DNA of 64,000 nt from Petroclostridium sp. X23 (GTDB lineage: Bacteria; Bacillota; Clostridia; SK-Y3), in assembly GCF_030013905.1 (NCBI RefSeq), contig NZ_CP124862.1:744001-808000 (forward strand), written 5' to 3'. The notes below the pieces were generated by a model. That model was given only the letters and a program-made list of their open reading frames with translations. It was not told the origin of the DNA and searched no databases. A program made the position numbers and the translations under genes. Below, one piece after another: positions 7,008 to 60,868 of this stretch (position 1 is its first letter; each line of letters begins with the position of its first letter).

Positions 7008-8330
7008 TCACTCCTTTGACCTCTCTCTTATAATAAATCTAACCGGTGTTCCCTCAAGACCAAAAGTATTTCTGATTTGGTTCTCAAGATATCTTTCATA
7101 TGAAAAATGCATCAATTCCCTATCATTCACGAATATTACAAACACAGGCGGCTTTACAGAAGCCTGGGTTGCATACAAGAGCTTCAATCTTTTTCCTTTA
7201 TCGGATGGAGGTTGAACCTTTGCAGTTGCTTCATTAATGATATCATTCAGCATTCCGGTTGAAATCCTGGTAGCATGCTGTTCTGAAACATACTTAATCA
7301 AATCAAACAGTTTTTCAACCCTTTGCCCTGTTTTAGCAGAAATAAACGCAATGGGTGCATAAGTCATGTAACTAAGCCGGTCCATCACATCCTGTCTAAA
7401 GTAATGCATGGTTTTATCATCTTTTTCTATAAGGTCCCACTTATTTACCACGATAATAGACGCTTTTCCTTGCTCATGGGCAAAACCGGCAACTTTCGTA
7501 TCCTGTTCGGTAACCCCTTCCGACGCATCCACCATGATGAGGCATACATCCGCACGCTCTACGGCTGTTAAAGACCTTATCACGCTATATCTTTCAATAT
7601 TCTCATAGATCTTGCCTTTTTTTCGCATTCCTGCCGTATCGATAAAAACATATTTCTGCCCGTCTTTCTCAAAAGAAGTATCAATAGCATCTCTGGTGGT
7701 TCCCGGTATATCGCTGACAATGACCCTTTCTTCTCCTAAAATCTTATTGATCAAAGAAGATTTTCCCGCATTAGGCTTACCTATTACAGCGACTTTGATT
7801 ACATCTTCTCCATAGTCTTCTGCTTCTTCATCAGGAAAATGCTCCGCAATCTCATCCAGTGCGTCCCCTATTCCAAGTCCATGTACTGATGAAACAGCCA
7901 AAGGTTCTCCCAGCCCCAGATTATAAAACTCATATAATTCCATAGGCGGTTCTCCGATATTATCCACTTTATTACAGATCAAAACTATAGGTTTACCTGA
8001 TCTCTGAAGCATGCTGGCGACATCTTTATCTGAAGCTGTCATTCCTTGTTTCACGTCGACTATAAACATAATGACATGTGCTGTTTCAATTGCTATTTCT
8101 GCTTGCCGCCTCATTTGCGCCAATAGTTCATCTTTGCTTTCCGGCTCAATCCCCCCCGTATCTATAATGGTGAATTTCCGATCCAGCCATTCTGCCTCCG
8201 CATAGATTCTGTCTCTGGTAACACCGGGTGTATCCTCAACAATTGATATTCTTTGTCCAACAATCTTGTTAAATAATGTTGATTTGCCAACATTAGGCCT
8301 TCCTACGATTGCAACAATAGGTTTTGCCAT
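7008..8330 (-). CDS. der: Ribosome biogenesis GTPase Der (EngA)
   Basis: The 440-residue protein has two tandem GTPase domains. The first P-loop is GRPNVGKST near residue 10, with DTGG and NKVD motifs; the second is GKPNAGKSS near residue 185, with DTAG and NKWD motifs. A C-terminal KH-like domain follows. Der acts in late 50S assembly. The ATG at 8328-8330 is chosen because GGAGGT lies six bases upstream and the family starts directly with the first P-loop strand. A longer frame would overlap the upstream gene. Confidence 0.97.
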
Positions 8331-8349
8331 TATAATACCTCCAACTGTC

Positions 8350-9678
8350 TTAATTAATAAGTCCAAGAATTTTATCTATAAAATCAAATCCGTTATTTTC
8401 AACTAGTACGACTTTGATACCTAACGCCTGTTCTACATCATAAATGCTCACATCATCCAAAAATACGTCCCTGTCACTTCTAAGCATTGTAACCGGCATC
8501 AGCAGCTCACTGCCCAGTTGCTTTCCTTTTAACTGCTTTATGATATCGCCGCCTGTAATCAAACCAGCTACCGTTACATTGTCTCCAAAATAGGTGTTTT
8601 TGATAGTGAACACATTTACTGTCAAACCATTTGTTCTTAGCTGCAGCTCATCTGCTAGGGATTGGATAAAAGCTTTTGCCGACGTTCCGGTTGCTATACT
8701 AATACATCTATTTTCAGCTCGGATAGGCTTTTTTATTCTATTGATTCCGATATCAAACTCTTCCCGCATAGAAGCAATTAGCCCTACCCCATTTTCGATT
8801 TGAGGAAACCCTTCATAATGCTGTGCCGGTGGGATGGACCTGGATGCCATAATATAAAACTCATCCGCAAGATAAACCATTCTTGAACCGTGTTCATCCA
8901 AAAGCTTATCTTGCCAATCTTCAACTTGAGAAATTACTTTTAAAGAAGATTCCTTATCAAAGGGCTTGAGTACAGGCAGATGATCTCTATGGATCGTTAA
9001 ACCTACAGGAACAATCGAAACGCTGTGCACATTAGGGTAAAATGCTGCAAGATCGGCAATGGTTCTATCCAATTGTTCGCCATCATTAATATCTCTGCAC
9101 AGAACGATCTGGCAATTCATTGTTATTTGAGCTGCACTGAGTTTGCTCATCTGCTTCAAGATGCCTGCCGCCTCTTTGTTGCCCAACATTTTCACTCTAA
9201 GCTCCGGATTTGTAGTATGGACCGAGATGTTAATAGGACTTAGCCGGAAACGGATAATTCTATCTATGTCGCTGTCCGACATATTGGTTAATGTCACATA
9301 ATTGCCTTGTAAAAAAGATAATCTCGAATCATCATCTTTAAAATACAAGGTTTTTCTCATATCTTTAGGCAACTGATCAATAAAACAAAAAATGCATTTA
9401 TTTGAACAAAATCTCGCTTTATCTATAAGAGGATTTTCAAACTCCAATCCCAGATCTTCATAATCTTCATTGAATATAGATACATATTCAACCTCACCAT
9501 CTGCTTTGATCACTTCCAGTTCCAGCTCCTCATCGCTGGTCAGAAATTTATATTCCAGTATATCATTTATCTTTTCACCGTTTATTTTACTGATAATATC
9601 GCCCGGCACAATGCCTGCTTCTTCTGCGATACTTCCTTTTATTACCTGCTTGACAATTGCATCAATTTGTCTGCTCAA
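8350..9678 (-). CDS. DUF512 radical-SAM-like protein with N-terminal PDZ domain
   Basis: The 442-residue protein starts with a PDZ-like segment ([21 protein letters not shown], about residues 14-33, a peptide-binding fold). A cysteine cluster CSNKCIFCF (about residues 91-99) follows, of the CxxxCxxC type that binds a 4Fe-4S cluster in radical SAM enzymes. The C-terminal half matches the DUF512 region. Family members are annotated as Fe-S oxidoreductases but have no established reaction. The start is TTG at 9678, with AAGGAG nine bases upstream. It is 19 bases from der, so the two are probably co-transcribed. Confidence 0.85.
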
Positions 9679-9811
9679 CCTCTATTACTCCTTATTTATG
9701 TAGATACTATTATTAAATATATATAATACGACTTGCATAGTAAACCTATTATAAATTTACATTAATAGTATTACTTAAAACAATATATAAGTCAAGCATT
9801 AATTGATTTAT

Positions 9812-10006
9812 TTAATGCTTGACGATAACATAAACACCATTTTCAAGATTGTGTGCCATTCCCATTGTAACTTTTGCTAAATAGAGTGCCAGCTTTTCGC
9901 TCTCACTCTCATCTTCAGAATAAAATACCGGTGCAAATCCACTCTGTACTTTATCCCTGTGATGTGTAACCACCGCAACAATAATATTCTGAATATCTAT
10001 GCCCAT
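9812..10006 (-). CDS. Small capping-subunit-like partner of the YIEGIA protein
   Basis: A 64-residue soluble protein with a beta-rich pattern. It looks like the small family annotated as capping complex subunit for YIEGIA and always sits beside a YIEGIA gene. The ATG at 10006 is chosen because AAGGAG lies eight bases upstream; that SD overlaps the stop of the YIEGIA gene, which implies translational coupling. No catalytic motif is visible. The molecular role is unknown. Confidence 0.7.
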   Translation of the reverse strand: MGIDIQNIIVAVVTHHRDKVQSGFAPVFYSEDESESEKLALYLAKVTMGMAHNLENGVYVIVKH

Positions 10007-11297: not shown

Positions 11298-11807
11298 TTA
11301 CTCTTTTTGGTTAAGTAATTTTTTTAACACTTCAAACCGCGGATCAATATTATTGTTGGTACAATTGCACTGCTCTATGTTCAAGTCTGCTCCACATGCA
11401 GGACATAACCCCTTGCAATCTTCAGAACACAAATACTTGACCGGTATGTTCATTAACGTATTGTTGACTACAATTTCAGTAATATCAATACGGCTGCCTT
11501 GAAAGCGAATAGTATCTTCATCTTCTCCATTGTTTCCTGCATCATTAGTCAGGTTTTCATGTATAGAAAAATCAAAATCCTTTTCCAATTCTTTCATGCA
11601 TCTAAAGCAGTTAACTTTTACACTTCCTGTAATTTGAGCATCTAGTTCAAAAACATTTTCTATTTTATGAATACTGCCTTTCACTTGAACAGGTTGTAAA
11701 AAATTATACAATGACCCCATGAACTCTACCTTGCCAATATTAACAACTGAATCAAATTCTAATTGCGAACTTTTACTCGTAATTATATCAGATAAATCTA
11801 TTATCAT
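11298..11807 (-). CDS. DUF177/YceD-family protein, 23S rRNA accumulation protein
   Basis: The 169-residue protein matches YceD/YlbN: a beta-rich N-terminal half, the CFRCMKEL motif (about residue 92) and a C-terminal zinc-ribbon-like Cys pattern (CSEDCKGLCPACG, about residues 132-144, and CNC). In other bacteria the family is needed for normal 23S rRNA levels and is co-transcribed with rpmF, as here. A perfect consensus promoter lies immediately upstream. Confidence 0.9.
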   Translation of the reverse strand: MIIDLSDIITSKSSQLEFDSVVNIGKVEFMGSLYNFLQPVQVKGSIHKIENVFELDAQITGSVKVNCFRCMKELEKDFDFSIHENLTNDAGNNGEDEDTIRFQGSRIDITEIVVNNTLMNIPVKYLCSEDCKGLCPACGADLNIEQCNCTNNNIDPRFEVLKKLLNQKE

Positions 11808-11835
11808 AGAACCACCTCAATAGTCAACAAATGAT

Positions 11836-11864
11836 ATTATACTAAGTTATACAACTTTTGTCAA
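11836..11864 (-). promoter_or_regulatory. Consensus sigma-A promoter of DUF177-rpmF
   Basis: On the minus strand, TTGACA (11859-11864), a 17-base spacer and TATAAT (11836-11841), both boxes perfect, about 28 bases before the DUF177 start. Confidence 0.85.
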
Positions 11865-12024
11865 TATTAAAACTTTATATTTCCGTCACTTTACTATGAT
11901 AGTCATCGATAATACACTCACTCTTTGTGTATAATGTTCCAATTACATGCATATTATGCATCATAATAAGCCAAAATCGTCCAAGAATGCTGAAAAAGTG
12001 CTTGATTGGTCAGTCGCAAAGCAC

Positions 12025-12077
12025 GGGGACGGAGCTTCAGCTTCACCAAAACCAGGTGCAGCAGTAGCTCCGTCCCC
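12025..12077. repeat. Inverted repeat GGGGACGGAGCT
   Basis: A 12-bp perfect inverted repeat (12025-12036 with 12066-12077) in the 343-base gap between the DUF177 promoter and the sugar kinase. Another CCGTCCCCC string occurs at about 12128. The GGGACGG core links it to the other clostridial palindromic repeats in the window. No gene was seen in this gap. Confidence 0.6.
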
Positions 12078-12150
12078 ATTCTTCACTCCTTCTACGTGCT
12101 AAATCGGGATTCTTCAATGGTTTCAAACCGTCCCCCGTCATAGGTATCTA

Positions 12151-13251
12151 TTATCTTTGGACTCTGGCGCTTCCGCCCTTCATAAGATTCTCAACCTCTT
12201 TAAGACTCGCCATAGAAGTATCTCCTGCGGTAGTCATGGCAAGAGCACCATGAGCTGCCCCATAGTTTACAGCTTTTAATGCGTCATCCGTTGTGATCAG
12301 GCCGTATACAAGTCCGGACGCAAAACTATCGCCTCCGCCGACTCTATCCAGTATTTCAAGGCTGTCATATTCATTCGCCTTATATACTTCCCCGTTAGCC
12401 CAGCAGATTGCACTCCAGTCATTGATTGTCGCAGACTTCACCGTTCTTAACGTTGTTGCTACCACTTTAAAGTTCGGATAAGCTTTAACAACTTGATTTA
12501 TCATTTTCTTATAACCGTCAAGATTCAGCTCTTTCAGATTTTCATCATTTCCTTCAACCTCAAATCCAAGGCATGCGGTGAAGTCTTCTTCGTTTCCGAT
12601 CATTACGTCAATATATTTCGCGATTTCTTTATTTACTTCCTGCGCTCTTGCTTTTCCTCCGATATGACTCCATAGAGACGGTCTGTAATTCAAATCGTAA
12701 GATACGATAGTACCGTATTTCTTAGCAATCTGAACTGCTTCAATCACTACATCAGGAGTAGTATCGGACAATGCCGCAAAGATCCCTCCGGTATGGAACC
12801 ATCTTGAACCCAATTTACCGAATATGTATTCCCAATCTATATCACCTTTTTTGAGTTGTGACGCGGCAGTATTGCCTCTATCCGAAACACCAAGAGCACC
12901 ACGTACACCATATCCTCTTTCGGTAAAGTTAAGTCCATTACGAACATTTCTTCCGATTCCATCATAAGGAATCCATTTGATCAAAGAAACATCCACGCCG
13001 CCTTGCATGATAAAGTCTTCAACCAATCTTCCTACTTCGTTATCTGCAAATGCAGTTACAACTCCAACATCCATATGAAAACATTTTCTTAGTCCACGGG
13101 AAACGTTATATTCTCCACCGCCTTCCCAAGCTTTGAATTCTCTAGCGGTCTTTATTCTTCCTTCACCCGGGTCCAACCTTAACATAATCTCTCCCAGAGA
13201 AATACAATCATATTTACAACTTTCTTTTGGTTTTACATTTAAAATAGGCAT
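12151..13251 (-). CDS. PfkB-family sugar kinase, probable 2-keto-3-deoxygluconate kinase
   Basis: A 366-residue ribokinase-fold protein. It has the N-terminal strand CISLGEIMLRLDP, the di-Gly substrate region WEGGGEYNVSRGL (about residues 43-55), and the C-terminal PfkB signature DRVGGGDSFASGL (about residue 302) with the catalytic Asp. The layout resembles 2-dehydro-3-deoxygluconokinases, which phosphorylate KDG before it is cleaved to pyruvate and glyceraldehyde-3-phosphate. A TGAAAC-type palindrome, like KdgR operators, lies just downstream of its promoter and supports the assignment. It is transcribed alone. Another sugar or sugar-acid substrate is possible. Confidence 0.75.
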   Translation of the reverse strand: MPILNVKPKESCKYDCISLGEIMLRLDPGEGRIKTAREFKAWEGGGEYNVSRGLRKCFHMDVGVVTAFADNEVGRLVEDFIMQGGVDVSLIKWIPYDGIGRNVRNGLNFTERGYGVRGALGVSDRGNTAASQLKKGDIDWEYIFGKLGSRWFHTGGIFAALSDTTPDVVIEAVQIAKKYGTIVSYDLNYRPSLWSHIGGKARAQEVNKEIAKYIDVMIGNEEDFTACLGFEVEGNDENLKELNLDGYKKMINQVVKAYPNFKVVATTLRTVKSATINDWSAICWANGEVYKANEYDSLEILDRVGGGDSFASGLVYGLITTDDALKAVNYGAAHGALAMTTAGDTSMASLKEVENLMKGGSARVQR

Positions 13252-53665: not shown

Positions 53666-53772
53666 AAATATCATCCCTATTTTTTATTGAATTATTTAGT
53701 ATTAGTGTTTACAGTAACGCAAATAATATAATTAAAAAATAAAGCTGTTGATAGACAATTGTCCATATATAT

Positions 53773-53828
53773 AAAACAACTAAAGCCTATCAGCCATAGA
53801 TCTATGGCTGATAGGCTTTAGTTGTTTT
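53773..53828. terminator. 56-nt perfect palindrome, terminator of the GntR operon
   Basis: The 28-bp arms are perfect and meet without a loop. It lies 47 bases beyond the stop of the last operon gene and ends in TTTT on each strand. It separates this operon from steA. Confidence 0.8.
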
Positions 53829-53875
53829 AGGAACAGCAAAATAATAACTTCCGATTTTTCAGCGGTTATTTTTCA

Positions 53876-54553
53876 TCACTTGGTACGCAATAATTCCACT
53901 ATCCTGCCTTCTTTGATAACCTTAACCAATTCCTGTGAATCCGAAATTCTCTCGGGCACTACGATCCCACCCCTCGCCGCATCCTGAGCCTGATGAAAAT
54001 CAGAGCCTGAAAGCATAAGACGACCATTCTGCCTCGCAAAAGCCAGTGCCAAATGATTCCGGGAATCATGCCTCGGATGCTCATTAAAGACCTCAACCCC
54101 GTCGATTAGAGTTGGATTTGCAGGAATCATCCCTGTTCTAAAAGGATGCGCCTGAATTATCAGTATTTCTTCATGCTTAACCAGTTCTTTAAAAGCCGTA
54201 AGGGTTAGTTTATATAACTCTTTGTTCTCTTTTAAAAAATCTTCATATATGCCGTATACCAGATAATCGTTTACGTTTTCTTCAAACCGTATCTCCATTC
54301 CGAGAATCACATCTACTCCCAGTTTTCTGCCATATACCTTTGCTTGGTTATAACCTGATAAGAAAAAGTCAATTTTCTCATTCCAGGTCTGCCCCTCCAG
54401 CCTGTCAAAATATCGTCTATAATAGTGGTCGGTAATCACGATACCATCATATCCGGCCTCGTGATAAAGTCTAACCGTTTCACCGGCTTTTACCTTGCCG
54501 CATTCGCTTACTTCCTGTGTATGAACATGCGTATCATATTTATATAGTCTCAT
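53876..54553 (-). CDS. PHP-domain phosphoesterase, last gene of the GntR operon
   Basis: A 225-residue PHP protein. It has the metal motifs THVHTQEVSECGK (about residues 8-20), VITDHYY (about residues 38-44), the Glu of GMEIRFEE (about residue 85), QAHPFR (about residue 134) and GSDFHQA (about residue 182), so the trinuclear site looks complete. Substrates of this family are usually small phosphate esters. It is 66 bases after the GntR regulator and shares the operon terminator. A second PHP protein is encoded in the same operon. Confidence 0.85.
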   Translation of the reverse strand: MRLYKYDTHVHTQEVSECGKVKAGETVRLYHEAGYDGIVITDHYYRRYFDRLEGQTWNEKIDFFLSGYNQAKVYGRKLGVDVILGMEIRFEENVNDYLVYGIYEDFLKENKELYKLTLTAFKELVKHEEILIIQAHPFRTGMIPANPTLIDGVEVFNEHPRHDSRNHLALAFARQNGRLMLSGSDFHQAQDAARGGIVVPERISDSQELVKVIKEGRIVELLRTK

Positions 54554-54619
54554 ATGTGCCCCCTGATATTAATAGTAACCATTTCTTATATAACATCTTA
54601 GAACGAACTGCAAAATACT

Positions 54620-55363
54620 TTAGGGACAATGATTAATATTCTTATGATATTCGAGCCTTAATTTTATTTTATCTCCTCTGAACAATACTTTAGTATATTC
54701 AAAAGGCAATTCCCCAGTGGTATAGACGATATTTTCCAACAATAACAGCGGAAATCCTTTTTTTACGGACAACATCTTCGCTTCCTCCAATGTCGCCATT
54801 GATGATTCAAGTGTTTCTACTATTTTCACAATTTTTAAATCATACTCTTTTTCTAAAATATCGCATAATTGGATGCCTTCCATGTCTTTCATTTCCAGAT
54901 TAGCGCAGAAAGTGACCGGTATATATGAAGTATGAAGACTTAAAGGCTCTTCTTTAATGTATCTGATTCTTTCTACAACATATACCTGGGTATTTTTTTC
55001 CAATCGCAATTCTTTTGAAACTCGAGCAGGAGGTATCCCCTTATCAATATTCAAAAGCTTGGTGGAAATTTGATAACCCATTTGCTCCAATTGCTCTCGA
55101 ATACCTAATTGGGATAGTGGCTTACTTACGATTTTAGGTACAGAAACAAAAGTCCCTTTCCCTTGAGCTCTATATAATAACCCTTCATGTACTAACCGGG
55201 TAATGACCCCTCTGGCTGTCATTCTGCTCACCCCATACATCTTGCTTATTTCATTTTCCGAAGGGATCAAATGATTCGGCAGCCATTCCTCATTCTCAAT
55301 TTTCTGTCTGACGATATCTTCTAACTGCGCATATAAAGGTTTAGGGCTTTGACGATCTAACAT
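54620..55363 (-). CDS. GntR/HutC-family regulator with UTRA domain
   Basis: The 247-residue protein has the GntR winged helix (PLYAQLEDIVRQKIENEEW..LIPSENEISKMYGVSRMTARGVI, residues about 8-55, with the QGKGTFV wing). The C-terminal UTRA ligand domain contains VYVVERIRYIKEEPLSLHTSYIP. HutC-type repressors usually bind GTNTANAC sites and release them on binding a sugar phosphate or a pathway intermediate. The palindrome over the operon promoter carries exactly this pattern. It is encoded inside the operon, which would give autoregulation. Confidence 0.92.
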   Translation of the reverse strand: MLDRQSPKPLYAQLEDIVRQKIENEEWLPNHLIPSENEISKMYGVSRMTARGVITRLVHEGLLYRAQGKGTFVSVPKIVSKPLSQLGIREQLEQMGYQISTKLLNIDKGIPPARVSKELRLEKNTQVYVVERIRYIKEEPLSLHTSYIPVTFCANLEMKDMEGIQLCDILEKEYDLKIVKIVETLESSMATLEEAKMLSVKKGFPLLLLENIVYTTGELPFEYTKVLFRGDKIKLRLEYHKNINHCP

Positions 55364-55402
55364 AGTTATTTACCTTTCATCTTTTTAATCATGCTTTTAC
55401 CA

Positions 55403-56368
55403 CTATTTTAACCCTAATTCCTTGGCATTGTAAATATTTTTTGGGTTTTTACCGTCAAAATAATCCACAACGGCCTGCGCAGCATCGGTAGACATCCTTA
55501 TTCTTGCTTCTTTGGTCAATGCCGCACTATGTGGTGATAAAATCACATTATCTAAATGAATAAAAGGATGATCTATCGGCAAAGGTTCCTCATAGAATAC
55601 ATCCAATGCCGCACCTGCGATTTTTTTATTACGCAGCAACTCCACCAGCGCTTCTTCGTCAATGACCGCACCTCTGGCCGTATTGATGAGATAGGCATCC
55701 GACTTCATTAAATTGAGCAGGTTGCTTGTAACCATACCTGTTGTAGAAGGGAGGTTGGGGCAATGAATACTGATGAAATCACTTGATTCAAACAGTTCTT
55801 CCAATGAATCTAAAAATTCATAATCAAAATCCATAAATTTTTCTTTTGCATAGGGATCGTAAGCCATTATCTTCATATCGAATGCGAGATGGCATTTTCT
55901 TGCTACTTCTGCACCTATATTCCCCATCCCTATGATACCTAGCGTTTTATCTTTTAATTCTACCATCGTATTCACATTTCTCATCTTCCAGTTTCCTTCA
56001 CGCACCGATATATCCATCAGCGGAAGCTGTTTCGCAATGGTCATCATCATACTGATCGCATGCTCACATACTGATAAGCTATTTACTCCAACAAGGTTAC
56101 ATACTAAGATCCCGGCCCTTGTGGCAGCATTCACATCTATATTATCTACACCCGCACCTGTTCTTGCGATAATCTTCAACTTCTGTGCACGCTTGATGAT
56201 CTCTTCGGTAATAGTGGTTGTAGTTCTTACAATGATGGCGTCTACATCGTCACATAAGCCAAGAACCGTTTCATGGGACGGGTCCGGAGATGCAATCACT
56301 TCAAAATTTTCTTGTAGCAATTTTCTTCCCAAGGGATGAATTTCCTGAGTCAAAAGAATTTTTTTCAC
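55403..56368 (-). CDS. D-isomer-specific 2-hydroxyacid dehydrogenase
   Basis: The 321-residue enzyme resembles D-3-phosphoglycerate dehydrogenase without the regulatory ACT domain. It has the Rossmann motif GMGNIG (about residues 147-152). The catalytic set is Arg in NTARGAVID (about residue 234), Glu in YEEPLP (about residue 263) and His in SPHSAALT (about residue 282). It reduces a 2-keto acid or oxidises a D-2-hydroxy acid with NAD. The start is a GTG that overlaps the DHDPS-family stop by four bases (GTGA), which strongly suggests linked roles. Confidence 0.92.
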   Translation of the reverse strand: MKKILLTQEIHPLGRKLLQENFEVIASPDPSHETVLGLCDDVDAIIVRTTTTITEEIIKRAQKLKIIARTGAGVDNIDVNAATRAGILVCNLVGVNSLSVCEHAISMMMTIAKQLPLMDISVREGNWKMRNVNTMVELKDKTLGIIGMGNIGAEVARKCHLAFDMKIMAYDPYAKEKFMDFDYEFLDSLEELFESSDFISIHCPNLPSTTGMVTSNLLNLMKSDAYLINTARGAVIDEEALVELLRNKKIAGAALDVFYEEPLPIDHPFIHLDNVILSPHSAALTKEARIRMSTDAAQAVVDYFDGKNPKNIYNAKELGLK

Positions 56369-57273
56369 GCTAATAATCCCTCGCTCTCTAAAAAAATTCT
56401 GATAGCGTTTTTCTCTTCTTCATCTACAGGCAATAGAGGTATTCTTGGACAACCTCCGAAATACCCTAATACATCCATTGCAGCTTTTACTCCTGCAACA
56501 CCACTCTTCCCTCCTGTTTTCTTATTTAGATCACATAGGTAGTTATGATATTTTTCTCCCTGCTCTTTATCATCGGCTAAGTAAAACTCATACAATCTAT
56601 TACATAATTCAGGCAGATAATTGGCCATTGAAAGAATTCCACCTACAGCGCCTGCAAGTAGCCCTGTATAGAATTTATTGATGCTTCCGGCAAGCACATG
56701 AAATTCTTCGTTTTTATCTACAGCATTAATATAAATCGCGATATCTTCTGTTGAAGTGTCTTTCATACCAACAATATTGGAATGTTTTGAGAGAACTTCA
56801 ATCACTTTTGGCGATATGGTCAGCCCCGCAGCAAACTTTGGCGCATTATAAACCAGCACCGGGATGGGTGAATGATCTGCAATGATTAAAAAGAATTTTA
56901 TCAAGGCTTCATCCGTCATGGCATTAATAAAGTAATGCGGTGCTAAAACGCTTGCAAATTCAGCGCCTTTATCCGCTGCTTTTTTGGTAAACTCAATGGT
57001 AGCACTTGCCGATTCCCTTCCCGTCCCTACCATCAATACCTTATCGGCTGTCCGGTTCTTTGCAATGGTTTCAATAATCTTTAACGACTCATCATCTGTC
57101 AAACTTCTAAACTCCCCATTACTTCCAAGCGGCATATAACCCCTTAAATTCGTTTCATTATACTTTTTGATATTATCCGCTAATTTATCGTATGACACCT
57201 TCTCATTTTCAAAAGGCGTCATAATAGGTGGAAAAACTCCTGATAATTTTTCTTTAATACTTACGTTCATCAT
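56365..57273 (-). CDS. DHDPS-family (class I) aldolase/lyase
   Basis: A 302-residue TIM-barrel enzyme of the dihydrodipicolinate synthase/N-acetylneuraminate lyase family. It has the entry motif PLGSNGEFRSLTDDE (about residues 47-61), the conserved Tyr in LVYNAPK (about residue 139) and the Schiff-base Lys in VGMKDTS (about residue 167). In a catabolic operon it more likely cleaves or dehydrates a 2-keto-3-deoxy acid than makes lysine. The first of two adjacent ATGs after GGGGG is used as the start. Confidence 0.9.
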   Translation of the reverse strand: MMNVSIKEKLSGVFPPIMTPFENEKVSYDKLADNIKKYNETNLRGYMPLGSNGEFRSLTDDESLKIIETIAKNRTADKVLMVGTGRESASATIEFTKKAADKGAEFASVLAPHYFINAMTDEALIKFFLIIADHSPIPVLVYNAPKFAAGLTISPKVIEVLSKHSNIVGMKDTSTEDIAIYINAVDKNEEFHVLAGSINKFYTGLLAGAVGGILSMANYLPELCNRLYEFYLADDKEQGEKYHNYLCDLNKKTGGKSGVAGVKAAMDVLGYFGGCPRIPLLPVDEEEKNAIRIFLESEGLLA

Positions 57274-57323
57274 CAATAAACCCCCTGGATTAATATTATT
57301 TTGCCGCGCTATTTAAAAAACTA

Positions 57324-58646
57324 CTATTCTTGCATTGCCTTTAACGCAATCTTTCCATTACCTACCGTTGAACACTCCTCCACCATATTAAAATCGTATT
57401 TTTCAAATCGTTTCTTCTTGAAATTCAGATATGTTTGACTTGTCATTCCTCCGGTTAGAAAGATTGTCTTATTGAGATCCATGATTTCCTCACATATACG
57501 TAATGTATTGACTAAAGGCTCCCATGTTCCAACCAATAAAGACATCAATAGGTCTTCTCTGGTTGTATCGAACGTCATGCCTGAAAAGCCTCCTTTTTTA
57601 ATGGTCATACTATGACGGTCTCCTGCAAGGTAAGGATCGAATTTTTCATCACCTGTCTGCTTATAATTTAACAGCAAATCCTCAAAGACTTCTTTATAGA
57701 AATTTTCTTTGGATATCTCCTTATAGAACTCTTTTCTATACCATTCCAAAGCAAAACCGCTTATTGTAATGGTTAGATAAAGCCATTTATTCTCTTCTAC
57801 CGAGGTTCTTATATAATAGCTTTCACAGGGTTTAGGATCGGTTGTCGTAACAGTCACGATTTCGCTGCTTCCGGCTACATTTAGAATATCACCATGATTC
57901 ACAGCGCCTGCACCAAATGCCGCACTGGAAGTGTCATTGGCGCCCATTACGACCGGTATTCCTTCTTTTAGTCCCAATAATCCCGCACATTCACCGGTCA
58001 ATTTTCCTATGAATTTTGTGGAACTTATAATTGGAGGCAATTTGTCCGTAGGTATCCCTAGTGTATTACATATTGACTCTGACCAGTTCCCTCCTTTTAA
58101 TGTCTCATACAATCCTGTAAAGGATGCGTTTGAAGGATCGATCCCCCATTCTCCGGTTAATTTTTTATGTATAAATGTATTCAAATGTCCGAACTTATAA
58201 GTACGATTAAAGATCTCCGGATAGTTTTCTTTTATCCAAAGTATACTTGTGAGGGAAATTCCTCCTGAAAACGGTAAATTCCCATTAATATTTAAGAAGT
58301 TTTCTTTTCCGACCAAATCCATCGCTTCATGGGATTGTTTATAGCTTCGTCGGTCAAGGTGAATAATAGATGGGTATAACGAATTGCCATATTGATCCAT
58401 TCCACAAAGCGCTGGAGAAAATACGCATATGACGATCACTTCTATTTTATCCAGGTGATCTTGCTGAAATTGCCGAATGCCTTTGATCATTGCAGCAAAT
58501 ATGATTTCAGGATCAATTTGCGCCTGAATCTTATCTATGACATCATAATTATATTCTATTTTGCTTTTCGCGATAAGCTTGAGAGTTTCATCCAGAATGG
58601 AAAGTTTTACGGAAGATGTACCGAAATCTACAGATAAAATATACAT
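57324..58646 (-). CDS. FGGY-family carbohydrate kinase
   Basis: The 440-residue two-domain kinase has the phosphate-binding loop DFGTSSVKLSILD (about residues 6-18), the central GANDTSSAAFGAGAVNHGD (about residues 243-261) and the C-terminal FLTGGMTSQTYL (about residue 393). FGGY kinases phosphorylate pentoses, pentitols, gluconate or glycerol; gluconokinase/xylulokinase types look closest. The ATG at 58644-58646 has GGAGGG upstream; an in-frame TTG five codons earlier has no site. It lies 199 bases after the PHP gene, a gap with an operator-like ATACGTAT. Confidence 0.9.
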   Translation of the reverse strand: MYILSVDFGTSSVKLSILDETLKLIAKSKIEYNYDVIDKIQAQIDPEIIFAAMIKGIRQFQQDHLDKIEVIVICVFSPALCGMDQYGNSLYPSIIHLDRRSYKQSHEAMDLVGKENFLNINGNLPFSGGISLTSILWIKENYPEIFNRTYKFGHLNTFIHKKLTGEWGIDPSNASFTGLYETLKGGNWSESICNTLGIPTDKLPPIISSTKFIGKLTGECAGLLGLKEGIPVVMGANDTSSAAFGAGAVNHGDILNVAGSSEIVTVTTTDPKPCESYYIRTSVEENKWLYLTITISGFALEWYRKEFYKEISKENFYKEVFEDLLLNYKQTGDEKFDPYLAGDRHSMTIKKGGFSGMTFDTTREDLLMSLLVGTWEPLVNTLRICEEIMDLNKTIFLTGGMTSQTYLNFKKKRFEKYDFNMVEECSTVGNGKIALKAMQE

Positions 58647-58776
58647 ATAATATCCCTCCAAATTGTTAAAGGTAATGTCAGAAGCTTGATGTAATGCCTG
58701 ACCGTAACCCTTTGATTACATTTCATTTCATTTTTAAATATGGCATGGTTTTGGAGTTAAAGAAAAACTAAAAAGA

Positions 58777-58792
58777 TTGATACGTATATTAA
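58777..58792. promoter_or_regulatory. Possible second GntR operator inside the operon
   Basis: The ATACGTAT core sits within TTGATACGTATATTAA, in the 199-base gap before the kinase gene. It matches only half of the GTNTANAC pattern. No clear promoter was found in this gap. Confidence 0.25.
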
Positions 58793-58845
58793 TTCATAAA
58801 GTGCAGAATATTTTTTACAGGATACTTAATACTTTTTTATTGAGT

Positions 58846-59805
58846 TCAAACCTTCTTCTCCTTACTCAATAAAGCACTTAAATAAATGTTGTTCATGAAA
58901 TACTCCAACGTGACCCCTTTTTCACCAATCATCCTGGGATTTTTTGTACCTTTTTTCCCATCATTATGATAATCGGAGCCGCCTGATATTATTTTTAATA
59001 TCGGACTGTACATGTCGATAATCTCTTTTTCAACTTGTTGCTCACTCATATTGCCTTTGTAACTGGTTTTTGAATAAGTATATGCTGCCTCTATACCATC
59101 CAATCCCACGTCTATTAGATGCCGAATGTATTCTTTTCTGTGGATTTGTTTGTTCGACTTGTATATCACCTCATCTATTAAATAAGGATGTGCGAGAATC
59201 GCTATGCCCCCTGCTTTATGAATAATGTCTATCGCTTTTATAGGATTGATTTTTTCTCTTTTTATATTATATTCCGGATTATCTCTTACCATTATTTTAG
59301 CTTCTTTCCATGTCGGTGTATAACCCTTATCAGCAATAGCTTCAAATATATGTTTACGTTGGATTTCTTCAGGTGCTCTAAACTCACCGTTATTTTCCAG
59401 CAGCTCCTGCCATGAAATCTTTATTCCATTGTTGCTCAATACTTCAGTAAGTTTTCTATATGCTTCAGTCTTGCTTCGCTTCATATTCTCTTCTTCCACT
59501 GCAAAATCCTCGGTTGTCCAATCGCATCCTAATCCGACAATATGAACATCATCAACATCGCTATCACAGGAATACTCAATGCCCAGCAATACATTTACAT
59601 TCTTTTGCCGCCCGTATTCAACCGTAGCTATGGATTGGTCCCCTATCTGCATTGCCGCTTTAGGTACTACATCATGATCGGTAATTGCAACAACCTTCAT
59701 TCCAAGATCAACCGCATTATCAATAAATTGTTGGTATGTATCGTTTCCATCCGACATATTTGTATGGCAATGCAAGTCACATAAATACTCCGGTCTATAT
59801 GTCAT
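58846..59805 (-). CDS. PHP-domain phosphoesterase
   Basis: The 319-residue protein has PHP metal motifs DLHCHTNMSDGND (about residues 10-22), AITDHD (about residue 41), EYSCDSD near residue 77, LAHPYLID (about residue 203) and GSDYHNDGKKG (about residue 272). Related proteins hydrolyse 3',5'-bisphosphates or other phosphate esters. It follows the aldolase gene by 26 bases. The second of two ATGs after AAGGTGGGAGA is used. It shares little beyond metal motifs with the other PHP protein in the operon. Confidence 0.87.
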   Translation of the reverse strand: MTYRPEYLCDLHCHTNMSDGNDTYQQFIDNAVDLGMKVVAITDHDVVPKAAMQIGDQSIATVEYGRQKNVNVLLGIEYSCDSDVDDVHIVGLGCDWTTEDFAVEEENMKRSKTEAYRKLTEVLSNNGIKISWQELLENNGEFRAPEEIQRKHIFEAIADKGYTPTWKEAKIMVRDNPEYNIKREKINPIKAIDIIHKAGGIAILAHPYLIDEVIYKSNKQIHRKEYIRHLIDVGLDGIEAAYTYSKTSYKGNMSEQQVEKEIIDMYSPILKIISGGSDYHNDGKKGTKNPRMIGEKGVTLEYFMNNIYLSALLSKEKKV

Positions 59806-59831
59806 CATTCTCCCACCTTATGTCAAAATAT

Positions 59832-60686
59832 TTAAATACGGTTTGCCGAACCAAACAATAATATATGCTCTTTTGTGGTATTTTTCACAACATCGATTAC
59901 GTGCTGATCCAGTTTCAAAGGTTCTACTTTATCTGCATTGTTTTCAATGTAACTTTTCAGCCCACTGCAGTATGCGATCTTTATTGCGGTAGAGATATTG
60001 ACTTTAGCTGCCCCTAAAGAAATCAACTGTTTGAATACGTCGCCCTCAAGTCCCGTGCCACCGTGTACCACCAATGGACATGAAGAAATTTCTTCTATCT
60101 CCTTAAAAAGATCAAAATTTATCTTGGGTTTGCCCTTATACAAGCCATGAGCAGTACCAATCGCAGGAGCAAAGGCATCTATACCTGTTTGTTCCAAGAA
60201 TATTTTACATTCATCTACTTTCGCTAAAGCTTCGTCACCACTGGCAACAATTACATCTTCTTCTACACCGACGATGGCTCCCAACTCACCTTCCACTGTC
60301 GCGTTATATTTTTTTGCATATGCTGCTATTTCCTTGGTAAGGCGGATGTTTTCATCTAAAGGCTTCTTCGAACCGTCAAACATGACTGATGACCATCCCG
60401 CATCTAAACATTTCTTGGCTAAATCCGCATCGGTGCAGTGGTCAAGATGTACTGCTACCGGTATACTTGCGTATTCGGCCATAGGGATCAACTGCTTGAT
60501 CAGTCCGTCTACTCCATGAAATTTCACTGTTGCGGTTGAAGTTTGTAGAATTAGTGGAGATCTTAATTCTTCAGCAGCATCAATAACAGCCTTTGCAGTT
60601 AAGTGGTTAAGAATATTGAATGCACCTACAGCATACCTTTCTTCTCTGGCTTTTTTGAGTATTTGACCCATATTAACATAAGACAT
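59832..60686 (-). CDS. Class II ketose-bisphosphate aldolase (GatY/KbaY/Fba type)
   Basis: The 284-residue zinc aldolase has GAFNILNH (about residues 21-28), the catalytic Asp and zinc His in VAVHLDHCTD (about residues 77-86), VEGELGAIVGVEED, zinc His residues in IGTAHGLYKG and VVHGGTG, and the phosphate-site NIST near residue 230. It cleaves a ketose bisphosphate to dihydroxyacetone phosphate and an aldehyde phosphate, or a related monophosphate. It is the first gene after the operator-promoter. Fructose- versus tagatose-bisphosphate specificity is not decided by inspection. Confidence 0.92.
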   Translation of the reverse strand: MSYVNMGQILKKAREERYAVGAFNILNHLTAKAVIDAAEELRSPLILQTSTATVKFHGVDGLIKQLIPMAEYASIPVAVHLDHCTDADLAKKCLDAGWSSVMFDGSKKPLDENIRLTKEIAAYAKKYNATVEGELGAIVGVEEDVIVASGDEALAKVDECKIFLEQTGIDAFAPAIGTAHGLYKGKPKINFDLFKEIEEISSCPLVVHGGTGLEGDVFKQLISLGAAKVNISTAIKIAYCSGLKSYIENNADKVEPLKLDQHVIDVVKNTTKEHILLFGSANRI

Positions 60687-60701
60687 ACACAAATCCCCCT
60701 T

Positions 60702-60757
60702 CTATAATCGAGCTATGTTATACATGTATATACATGTATAACATAGCTCGATTATAG
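60702..60757. promoter_or_regulatory. 56-nt perfect palindromic operator of the GntR operon
   Basis: The palindrome is perfect and has no loop. Its centre holds GT-A-TA-T-AC, the HutC-type GntR half-site pattern, flanked by TACATGTA dyads. Its distal end contains the promoter -10 box. A repressor here would cover the -10 and the start point. Confidence 0.75.
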
Positions 60758-60779
60758 CAAAGTTTTCCGCAAAAGTAAA
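60751..60779 (-). promoter_or_regulatory. Sigma-A promoter of the GntR operon
   Basis: On the minus strand, TTTACT (60774-60779), 17 bases, perfect TATAAT (60751-60756). The -10 is part of the palindrome. Confidence 0.7.
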
Positions 60780-60813
60780 TACCTAATTGTAAAAATTATC
60801 AAACTGATATAAT

Positions 60814-60868
60814 AATAAACACCTGCTATTTGTTGATTCTACAAGTCAACAAATAGCAGGTGTTTATT
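60814..60868. terminator. Terminator after spo0A
   Basis: A 23-bp perfect stem with a nine-base loop and TTATTATTAT-type tails, about 100 bases beyond the spo0A stop and before the GntR operon promoter. Confidence 0.8.

Follow-up and report, generated by a model that had tools for sequence, protein, structure and literature searches.

A candidate sugar-acid operon of Petroclostridium sp. X23 with a class II aldolase and a PHP-family phosphoesterase

Gene content and boundaries

Within a 64,000-nucleotide stretch of DNA from Petroclostridium sp. X23 (contig NZ_CP124862.1, positions 744,001 to 808,000; hereafter, the window), we analysed seven minus-strand open reading frames (ORFs) for a class II aldolase (FbaII), a PHP-family phosphoesterase (PHP1), an FGGY kinase, a DHDPS-type lyase, a 2-hydroxyacid dehydrogenase, a GntR-UTRA regulator, and a second PHP protein (PHP2). 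An earlier sequence-only reading of the window had placed seven genes of these families here as a catabolic operon between two strong hairpins. Both the gene families and their location agreed with the ORFs and with matches to Pfam/NCBIfam (F_bP_aldolase, E 4.3e-89, for FbaII; PHP, 5e-12, for PHP1; FGGY_N, 3e-48, for the kinase; DHDPS, 1e-40, for the lyase; 2-Hacid_dh_C, 6e-62, for the dehydrogenase; UTRA, 2e-33, plus GntR for the regulator; PHP, 4e-8, plus PHP_C for PHP2), and folding energies bore out the hairpins. From 5′ to 3′, the features are:

60814-60868, minus strand: hairpin at the 5′ boundary, separating the operon from spo0A (perfect arms of 23 nt, -33.2 kcal/mol, z -11.0)
60751-60779, minus strand: extended -10 promoter-like site from a consensus scan (TTTACT-17-TATAAT, TG before the second hexamer)
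60702-60757, strandless: perfect 56-bp palindrome, predicted GntR-UTRA operator, covering the -10 box (core TGTATATACA at 60725-60734)
59832-60686, minus strand: FbaII, class II ketose-phosphate aldolase (ORF open from TTG 60692)
58846-59808, minus strand: PHP1, PHP-family phosphoesterase (Pfam PHP)
57324-58646, minus strand: compact FGGY carbohydrate kinase from a separate clade (ORF open from TTG 58661)
56365-57276, minus strand: DHDPS-superfamily pyruvate aldolase, HOGA type by its Pfam DHDPS and HOGA matches
55403-56368, minus strand: D-2-hydroxyacid dehydrogenase of the phosphoglycerate dehydrogenase / glyoxylate reductase type (Pfam/NCBIfam)
54620-55363, minus strand: GntR-UTRA regulator (Pfam)
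53876-54553, minus strand: PHP2, short PHP protein of a stand-alone family (Pfam)
53772-53829, minus strand: intrinsic terminator at the 3′ boundary (29-nt perfect arms, T-rich 3′ end, -42.9 kcal/mol, z -11.6)

The likely starts of the aldolase and the kinase are ATG 60686 and ATG 58646, both with a good ribosome-binding site. The 5′ hairpin lies 3′ of spo0A and is, on the simplest reading, most likely the spo0A terminator. No transporter gene was found in the seven-gene interval.

The sequence-only reading had spoken of two mechanistically different aldolases; there are indeed two, and they can now be specified. Among solved structures, the lyase best matched human 4-hydroxy-2-oxoglutarate aldolase (HOGA1; 1.4e-51, the next match reaching 1.3e-29), and it carries the motifs of this type—GSNGE, the catalytic lysine in GMKD, and the tyrosine in VYNAP—by which it is predicted to be a HOGA-type pyruvate aldolase. 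The other is a class II aldolase without the C-terminal arginine of the DPRK type (see below). The dehydrogenase resembles glyoxylate and hydroxypyruvate reductases, was accompanied by the lyase in six of six loci, and overlaps the lyase ORF by 4 bp.

A palindrome at the promoter and a shared operator core

The promoter and the 56-bp palindrome had both been overlooked in the sequence-only reading, and the TATAAT of the former lies inside the latter. Fifty-six base pairs without mismatch is an unusual length for an operator; as RNA, the palindrome would fold into a hairpin of -42 kcal/mol. With its core TGTATATACA, it resembles HutC-type GntR-UTRA operators, and likely serves as the operator of the operon's own GntR-UTRA protein. 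Autoregulation is consistent with a regulator gene inside the unit and a family-type palindrome at its promoter, and this arrangement, together with genes that are kept together in relatives, agrees with the earlier view of a catabolic operon.

We read the surroundings of these genes in other genomes; genomes, loci and taxonomic families are referred to below by G, L and f numbers, respectively. The regulator is 54-56% identical to the regulators within the operons of G003 and G004, and 49-50% identical to those in other FbaII-PHP1 loci. Two relatives (L023 and L024) also have the core TGTATATACA in front of this operon, upstream of FbaII in each, and the regulators there are orthologous. G004 contained three copies in the 36 kb read, compared with 0.03-0.04 per 18-20 kb in shuffled sequence. 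Each copy lies 5′ of one operon: a tripartite ATP-independent periplasmic (TRAP) transporter, DctP-DctQ-DctM, with a LarA-like protein; RpiB with a split transketolase (RpiB-TktN-TktC); and the six-gene counterpart of the window operon. This LarA-like protein belongs to the NCBIfam nickel-pincer isomerase group 22, for which two studies of LarA homologues (PMC7583248, PMC11770544) gave no function.

A search of the window's own genome for a transporter under the same operator found no further perfect site; of the remaining core matches, those that were read adjoin a paralogous GntR gene with a mannose-type phosphotransferase system, or unrelated genes. Nor is the core universal: sites differ in the f55 operons (ACTGGTCATGACCACT in L063).

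Gene sets of relatives and the FbaII-PHP1 partnership

The kinase is rare, being detected at E <= 1e-75 in only six of 391 sampled Clostridia genomes. The sequence-only reading had made its case depend on co-occurrence of the genes in other genomes, and they do co-occur. G003 and G004, from the same family as the window's organism, have FbaII-PHP1-GntR-DHDPS-dehydrogenase-FGGY side by side. G659 (L087, L103; f122), which belongs to a different class of the phylum, has the contiguous order DctM-DctQ-DctP-LarA-dehydrogenase-DHDPS-FGGY-TktC-TktN-FbaII-PHP1-RpiB-TktC-TktN-transaldolase; L090 has the same set with TRAP genes not nearby, and L088 lacks both LarA and a kinase of the window clade. Smaller sets in L019 and L020 comprise DHDPS-FGGY-RpiB-TktN-TktC, the dehydrogenase being absent. 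The f122 proteins are closer to those of the window (dehydrogenase 59-62% identical, DHDPS 57-58%, and FGGY 61% for the kinases of L087 and L090) than are the dehydrogenase, lyase and kinase of G003/G004 (39-47%). A 12-lyase tree placed the window's lyase nearest to the f122 rows by path, at a fork that was not resolved; horizontal transfer is possible.

These contexts point to sugar acids as the substrate class. In L102, UxaA-type and IlvD/Edd-type dehydratases, recognised by sequence reading, stand beside a second kinase of the window clade, and in L028 (G301) a galactonate-dehydratase-like enolase and an MBL protein adjoin a kinase relative. The linkage of TRAP and LarA genes in relatives therefore most likely names the substrate as a 2-hydroxy sugar acid, in keeping with the earlier expectation that a co-occurring transporter family would reveal the substrate class. 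The claim that the operon lacks a transporter thus holds within the interval and fails for relatives, where TRAP genes and a LarA-like epimerase gene either share the operator core or are contiguous with the operon. Of the two origins proposed for the substrate, synthesis inside the cell and uptake through a transporter encoded elsewhere, we prefer the second: the substrate is very probably taken up as an acid. In the 5.5-Mb genome of the window (G000), TRAP and split-transketolase genes are very numerous (DctP-like binding-protein genes number roughly 30 and split transketolases about a dozen), and a chimeric LarA/RpiB/Tkt/DctP query against this genome returned many paralogues and no clear one-to-one partner.

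PHP2 does not share this conservation, contrary to the inclusion of both PHP genes in the unit by the sequence-only reading. It is absent from G003 and G004, both of which carry the six-gene operon. Present in 102 of 391 Clostridia genomes, it had unrelated neighbourhoods in all 12 regions read (L070-L081), and on these contexts we reject it as a pathway enzyme; one further case lies near FbaII and FGGY in G301. PHP2 thus belongs to a widespread stand-alone family and is probably a bystander at the operon's 3′ end.

PHP1, by comparison, keeps company with FbaII. A search across the phylum found PHP1 in 19 of 398 sampled genomes (~5%), and a plasmid search with PHP1 gave no match. Across 30 PHP1 loci, FbaII was present in 25 and a transketolase, transaldolase or RpiB in 23, both counts being lower bounds because some loci are cut by contig ends. 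In four loci FbaII and PHP1 are joined as natural fusions of a class II aldolase and a PHP domain, 595-611 amino acids long (L064:9250-11037; L066:8723-10558; L068:9774-11564; L099:9819-11624), arguing for consecutive steps. Gene contexts vary, with sugar-acid operons at one end and compact FbaII-PHP1-transaldolase-HAD sets at the other.

The metal-ligand motifs of the PHP family are invariant in 20 aligned PHP1 proteins, which also share the motif GLDGIEA.YTY.KT.Y.G. An AlphaFold model (predicted local distance difference test, pLDDT, 94) best matched RNase AM, BAD_1165 and an AMP-bound amidohydrolase from C. violaceum, and identity to the nearest full-length structures is 24-28%. PHP1 scored well below the curated equivalogs for 3′,5′-nucleoside bisphosphate phosphatase / RNase AM (92 bits vs 400; 99 bits vs 375). 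Its carbohydrate context and conserved motif likewise set it apart from RNase AM (YciV) and this phosphatase, with which it shares the PHP fold and metal-ligand motifs.

In FbaII, the metal-binding histidines and the catalytic aspartate (HLDH, TAHG, HGG) are invariant in family alignments. At the position of the DPRK-type arginine, all 13 proteins of the window type have PLK (one PLT) and lack the arginine, whereas the other aldolase partners of PHP1 have D-x-RK in 12 of the 12 that include the region, as the fructose-bisphosphate aldolases compared also have arginine. This arginine may contact the distal phosphate; our literature search on its role in class II aldolases found no match. SqiA, the sulfofructose-phosphate aldolase that was the top Foldseek match to the FbaII model (pLDDT 89), likewise lacks the arginine, and its substrate is a ketose 1-phosphate without a 6-phosphate. 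The window's FbaII thus fits an acceptor that carries no phosphate, and we propose that PHP1 may be its ketose C1-phosphatase partner.

Several observations on related loci stand apart from this argument. In f55, tandem arrays of four DeoC-like aldolase genes lie beside FbaII-PHP1 and a xylulokinase-like kinase (L063:10785-13789, L098:11334-14319). L052 holds two TktN-TktC copies with the same translation (8036-9828 and 11412-13204), ~3.4 kb apart, which adjoin a related FGGY kinase, a Zn alcohol dehydrogenase and a DhnA/LsrF-like aldolase. L057:3758-10284 encodes a LarA 80% identical to the operon-linked one, together with a split transketolase, a DUF1537-type kinase and PdxA2-like genes; by gene content it is a predicted locus of the tetronate type that includes a hydroxyacid epimerase. 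In G301, the kinase operon contains right-handed beta-helix-like proteins with no obvious signal peptide (L028:2279-4177, 7086-9083 and L054:5731-7662), which could possibly act in intracellular polysaccharide processing.

A possible route and its alternatives

We tentatively read the cluster, with somewhat less than even confidence, as a regulated, substrate-inducible catabolic operon for a 2-hydroxy sugar acid. Gene linkage, conservation, the common operator core and the FbaII-PHP1 fusions are observed; from them we infer the following course, with its substrates, the sense in which FbaII works and the sequence of reactions, chosen so that each conserved enzyme has a place. The operon's own GntR-UTRA protein would repress it at the palindrome that covers the -10 box. 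A TRAP transporter whose genes lie elsewhere would import the acid, and a LarA-type enzyme would epimerise it at C2 if this is required, as LarA homologues are known to epimerise 2-hydroxy acids, sugar acids included (PMC7583248, PMC11770544). The dehydrogenase would convert the D-2-hydroxy acid to a 2-keto-3-deoxy acid, which the HOGA-type aldolase would split into pyruvate and a short aldehyde, which for a five-carbon acid would be glycolaldehyde. FbaII would then join the aldehyde to dihydroxyacetone phosphate (DHAP) to give a ketose 1-phosphate, PHP1 would strip the C1 phosphate, and the FGGY kinase would rephosphorylate the free ketose at its other end. The resulting pentulose 5-phosphate (D-xylulose 5-phosphate from a five-carbon acid) would pass to transketolase, RpiB and transaldolase. 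For glycolaldehyde, the stereochemistry agrees with the behaviour of fructose-bisphosphate aldolases. No dehydratase was found in the window operon or in the G003, G004 and G659 sets, and its absence from the window operon and those of G004 and G659 points either to import of an acid that is already 3-deoxy or to a dehydratase gene elsewhere.

Several points weigh against this route. Making and then dephosphorylating a ketose consumes ATP. The kinase scored 185 bits against the XylB equivalog, whose cut-off is 380, and lacks pocket motifs typical of xylulokinases. The substrates of characterised PHP1 relatives are nucleotides and RNA rather than sugar phosphates, and several lineages pair PHP1 with a DPRK-type aldolase of the ordinary kind, where its substrate may be a bisphosphate. 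Finally, LarA and TRAP genes were not found adjoining the window operon or under its operator in its own genome.

Operation in the textbook direction, with FGGY making a ketose 1-phosphate for FbaII to split into DHAP and an aldehyde, is rather unlikely in our view, although pairs of an FGGY kinase and an aldolase are known for fuculose and rhamnulose. PHP1 would then hydrolyse a phosphodiester or cyclic sugar phosphate, and the dehydrogenase and lyase would form a second branch. PHP1 does resemble cyclic-phosphate and bisphosphate hydrolases (Cycl_ph_dihydrol, 1e-15; nucleoside bisphosphatase, 3e-26), with scores far under the cut-offs; however, no phosphodiester uptake system was seen in the contexts read, and most PHP1-FbaII loci are without an FGGY kinase of the window clade, which ties PHP1 to the aldolase and not to that kinase. 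We consider it unlikely that the lyase and dehydrogenase form a redox sink like HOGA1/GRHPR of hydroxyproline breakdown, the lyase yielding glyoxylate or hydroxypyruvate for reduction to glycolate or glycerate. The match of the lyase to HOGA1, the reductase-like dehydrogenase and the shared 4 bp all suit such a sink, but L019 and L020 have the lyase alongside RpiB-Tkt-FGGY with no dehydrogenase, and a LarA neighbour of the dehydrogenase is just as compatible with 2-hydroxy acid oxidation.

Quite unlikely, as we see it, is that PHP1 and FbaII form a new-class fructose/sedoheptulose-bisphosphatase for general sugar-phosphate interconversion, with sugar-acid enzymes merely sharing the regulator. 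In f106 and f122, PHP1 does occur with a DPRK-type FbaII together with transaldolase, transketolase and RpiB; its companions in f163 and f173 are FbaII and transaldolase. Moreover, in a search that covered the GlpX class only, GlpX bisphosphatase was missing from 24 of 28 genomes, compared with its presence in eight of 14 controls. The window's genome (G000), however, is among the four that have GlpX (with G004, G659 and G585), and its FbaII lacks the arginine. A variant of the sulfosugar pathways sulfo-TK (transketolase) or sulfo-EMP2 (Embden-Meyerhof-Parnas) is highly improbable. The structural match of FbaII to SqiA, and the RpiB-like isomerase and split transketolase of relatives, recall these systems (SqvD, SqwGH, SqwI, SqiA), but counterparts of the SqvD isomerase, SQase and SqiK were not identified in the operon or relatives. 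Sulfo-TK requires neither a kinase nor a pyruvate aldolase, and the window's kinase, pyruvate aldolase, dehydrogenase and PHP1 would have no role in either pathway. None of SqvD, SqwGH, SqwI and SqwF is encoded in the window operon; SqwGH/SqwI-like proteins occur only in relatives, and SqvD and SqwF were identified in neither.

Other known systems resemble the proposed sugar-acid route in part. Like the YagE/YjhH-type and HOGA-type non-phosphorylating sugar-acid routes, it has a DHDPS-family aldolase expected to give pyruvate and an aldehyde, and sugar-acid dehydratases stand beside the related kinases in L102 and L028; unlike them, the window and G003/G004 operons have a 2-hydroxyacid dehydrogenase in the dehydratase's place. 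Those routes oxidise or reduce the aldehyde, the usual fate of sugar-acid aldehydes such as glycolaldehyde, whereas here it would be rebuilt into a ketose phosphate. Class V fructose-bisphosphatase is a bifunctional fructose-bisphosphate aldolase/phosphatase in a single polypeptide; the fusions likewise place aldolase and phosphatase in one chain, but with two unrelated folds, a class II metal-dependent aldolase and a PHP domain. The four-carbon acid-sugar pathway was rejected: its DUF1537 kinase and PdxA2 are absent from the operon and were recognised, by sequence reading, only at a different locus of G004.

As the sequence-only reading had anticipated of textbook pathways, we found neither this gene set nor an aldolase-PHP fusion described in the open-access literature, most subscription journals lying outside that scope, and literature searches on apiose/apulose and on acetogen sugar operons gave no match. 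The individual protein families have been described, but as far as we found, their combination and PHP1's role have not. Designed pathways from glycolaldehyde, with xylulokinase among the listed enzymes, have been published (PMC8208507). That PHP1 both represents a sugar phosphatase class of its own—a C1-phosphatase for ketoses, tied to, and sometimes fused with, a class II aldolase—and, with the aldolase, kinase and transketolase/RpiB/transaldolase, forms a natural carbon-conserving route from DHAP and a sugar-acid aldehyde to pentulose phosphate in anaerobic Bacillota is a more doubtful proposition. If true, aldol joining with a dedicated phosphatase would add a new piece of central metabolism for aldehyde assimilation and make enzymes for glycolaldehyde assimilation available to metabolic engineers. 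A PHP-family ketose phosphatase would also give a name to a conserved family of the phylum's sampled genomes, and PHP1 could explain how lineages without GlpX carry out the bisphosphatase step.

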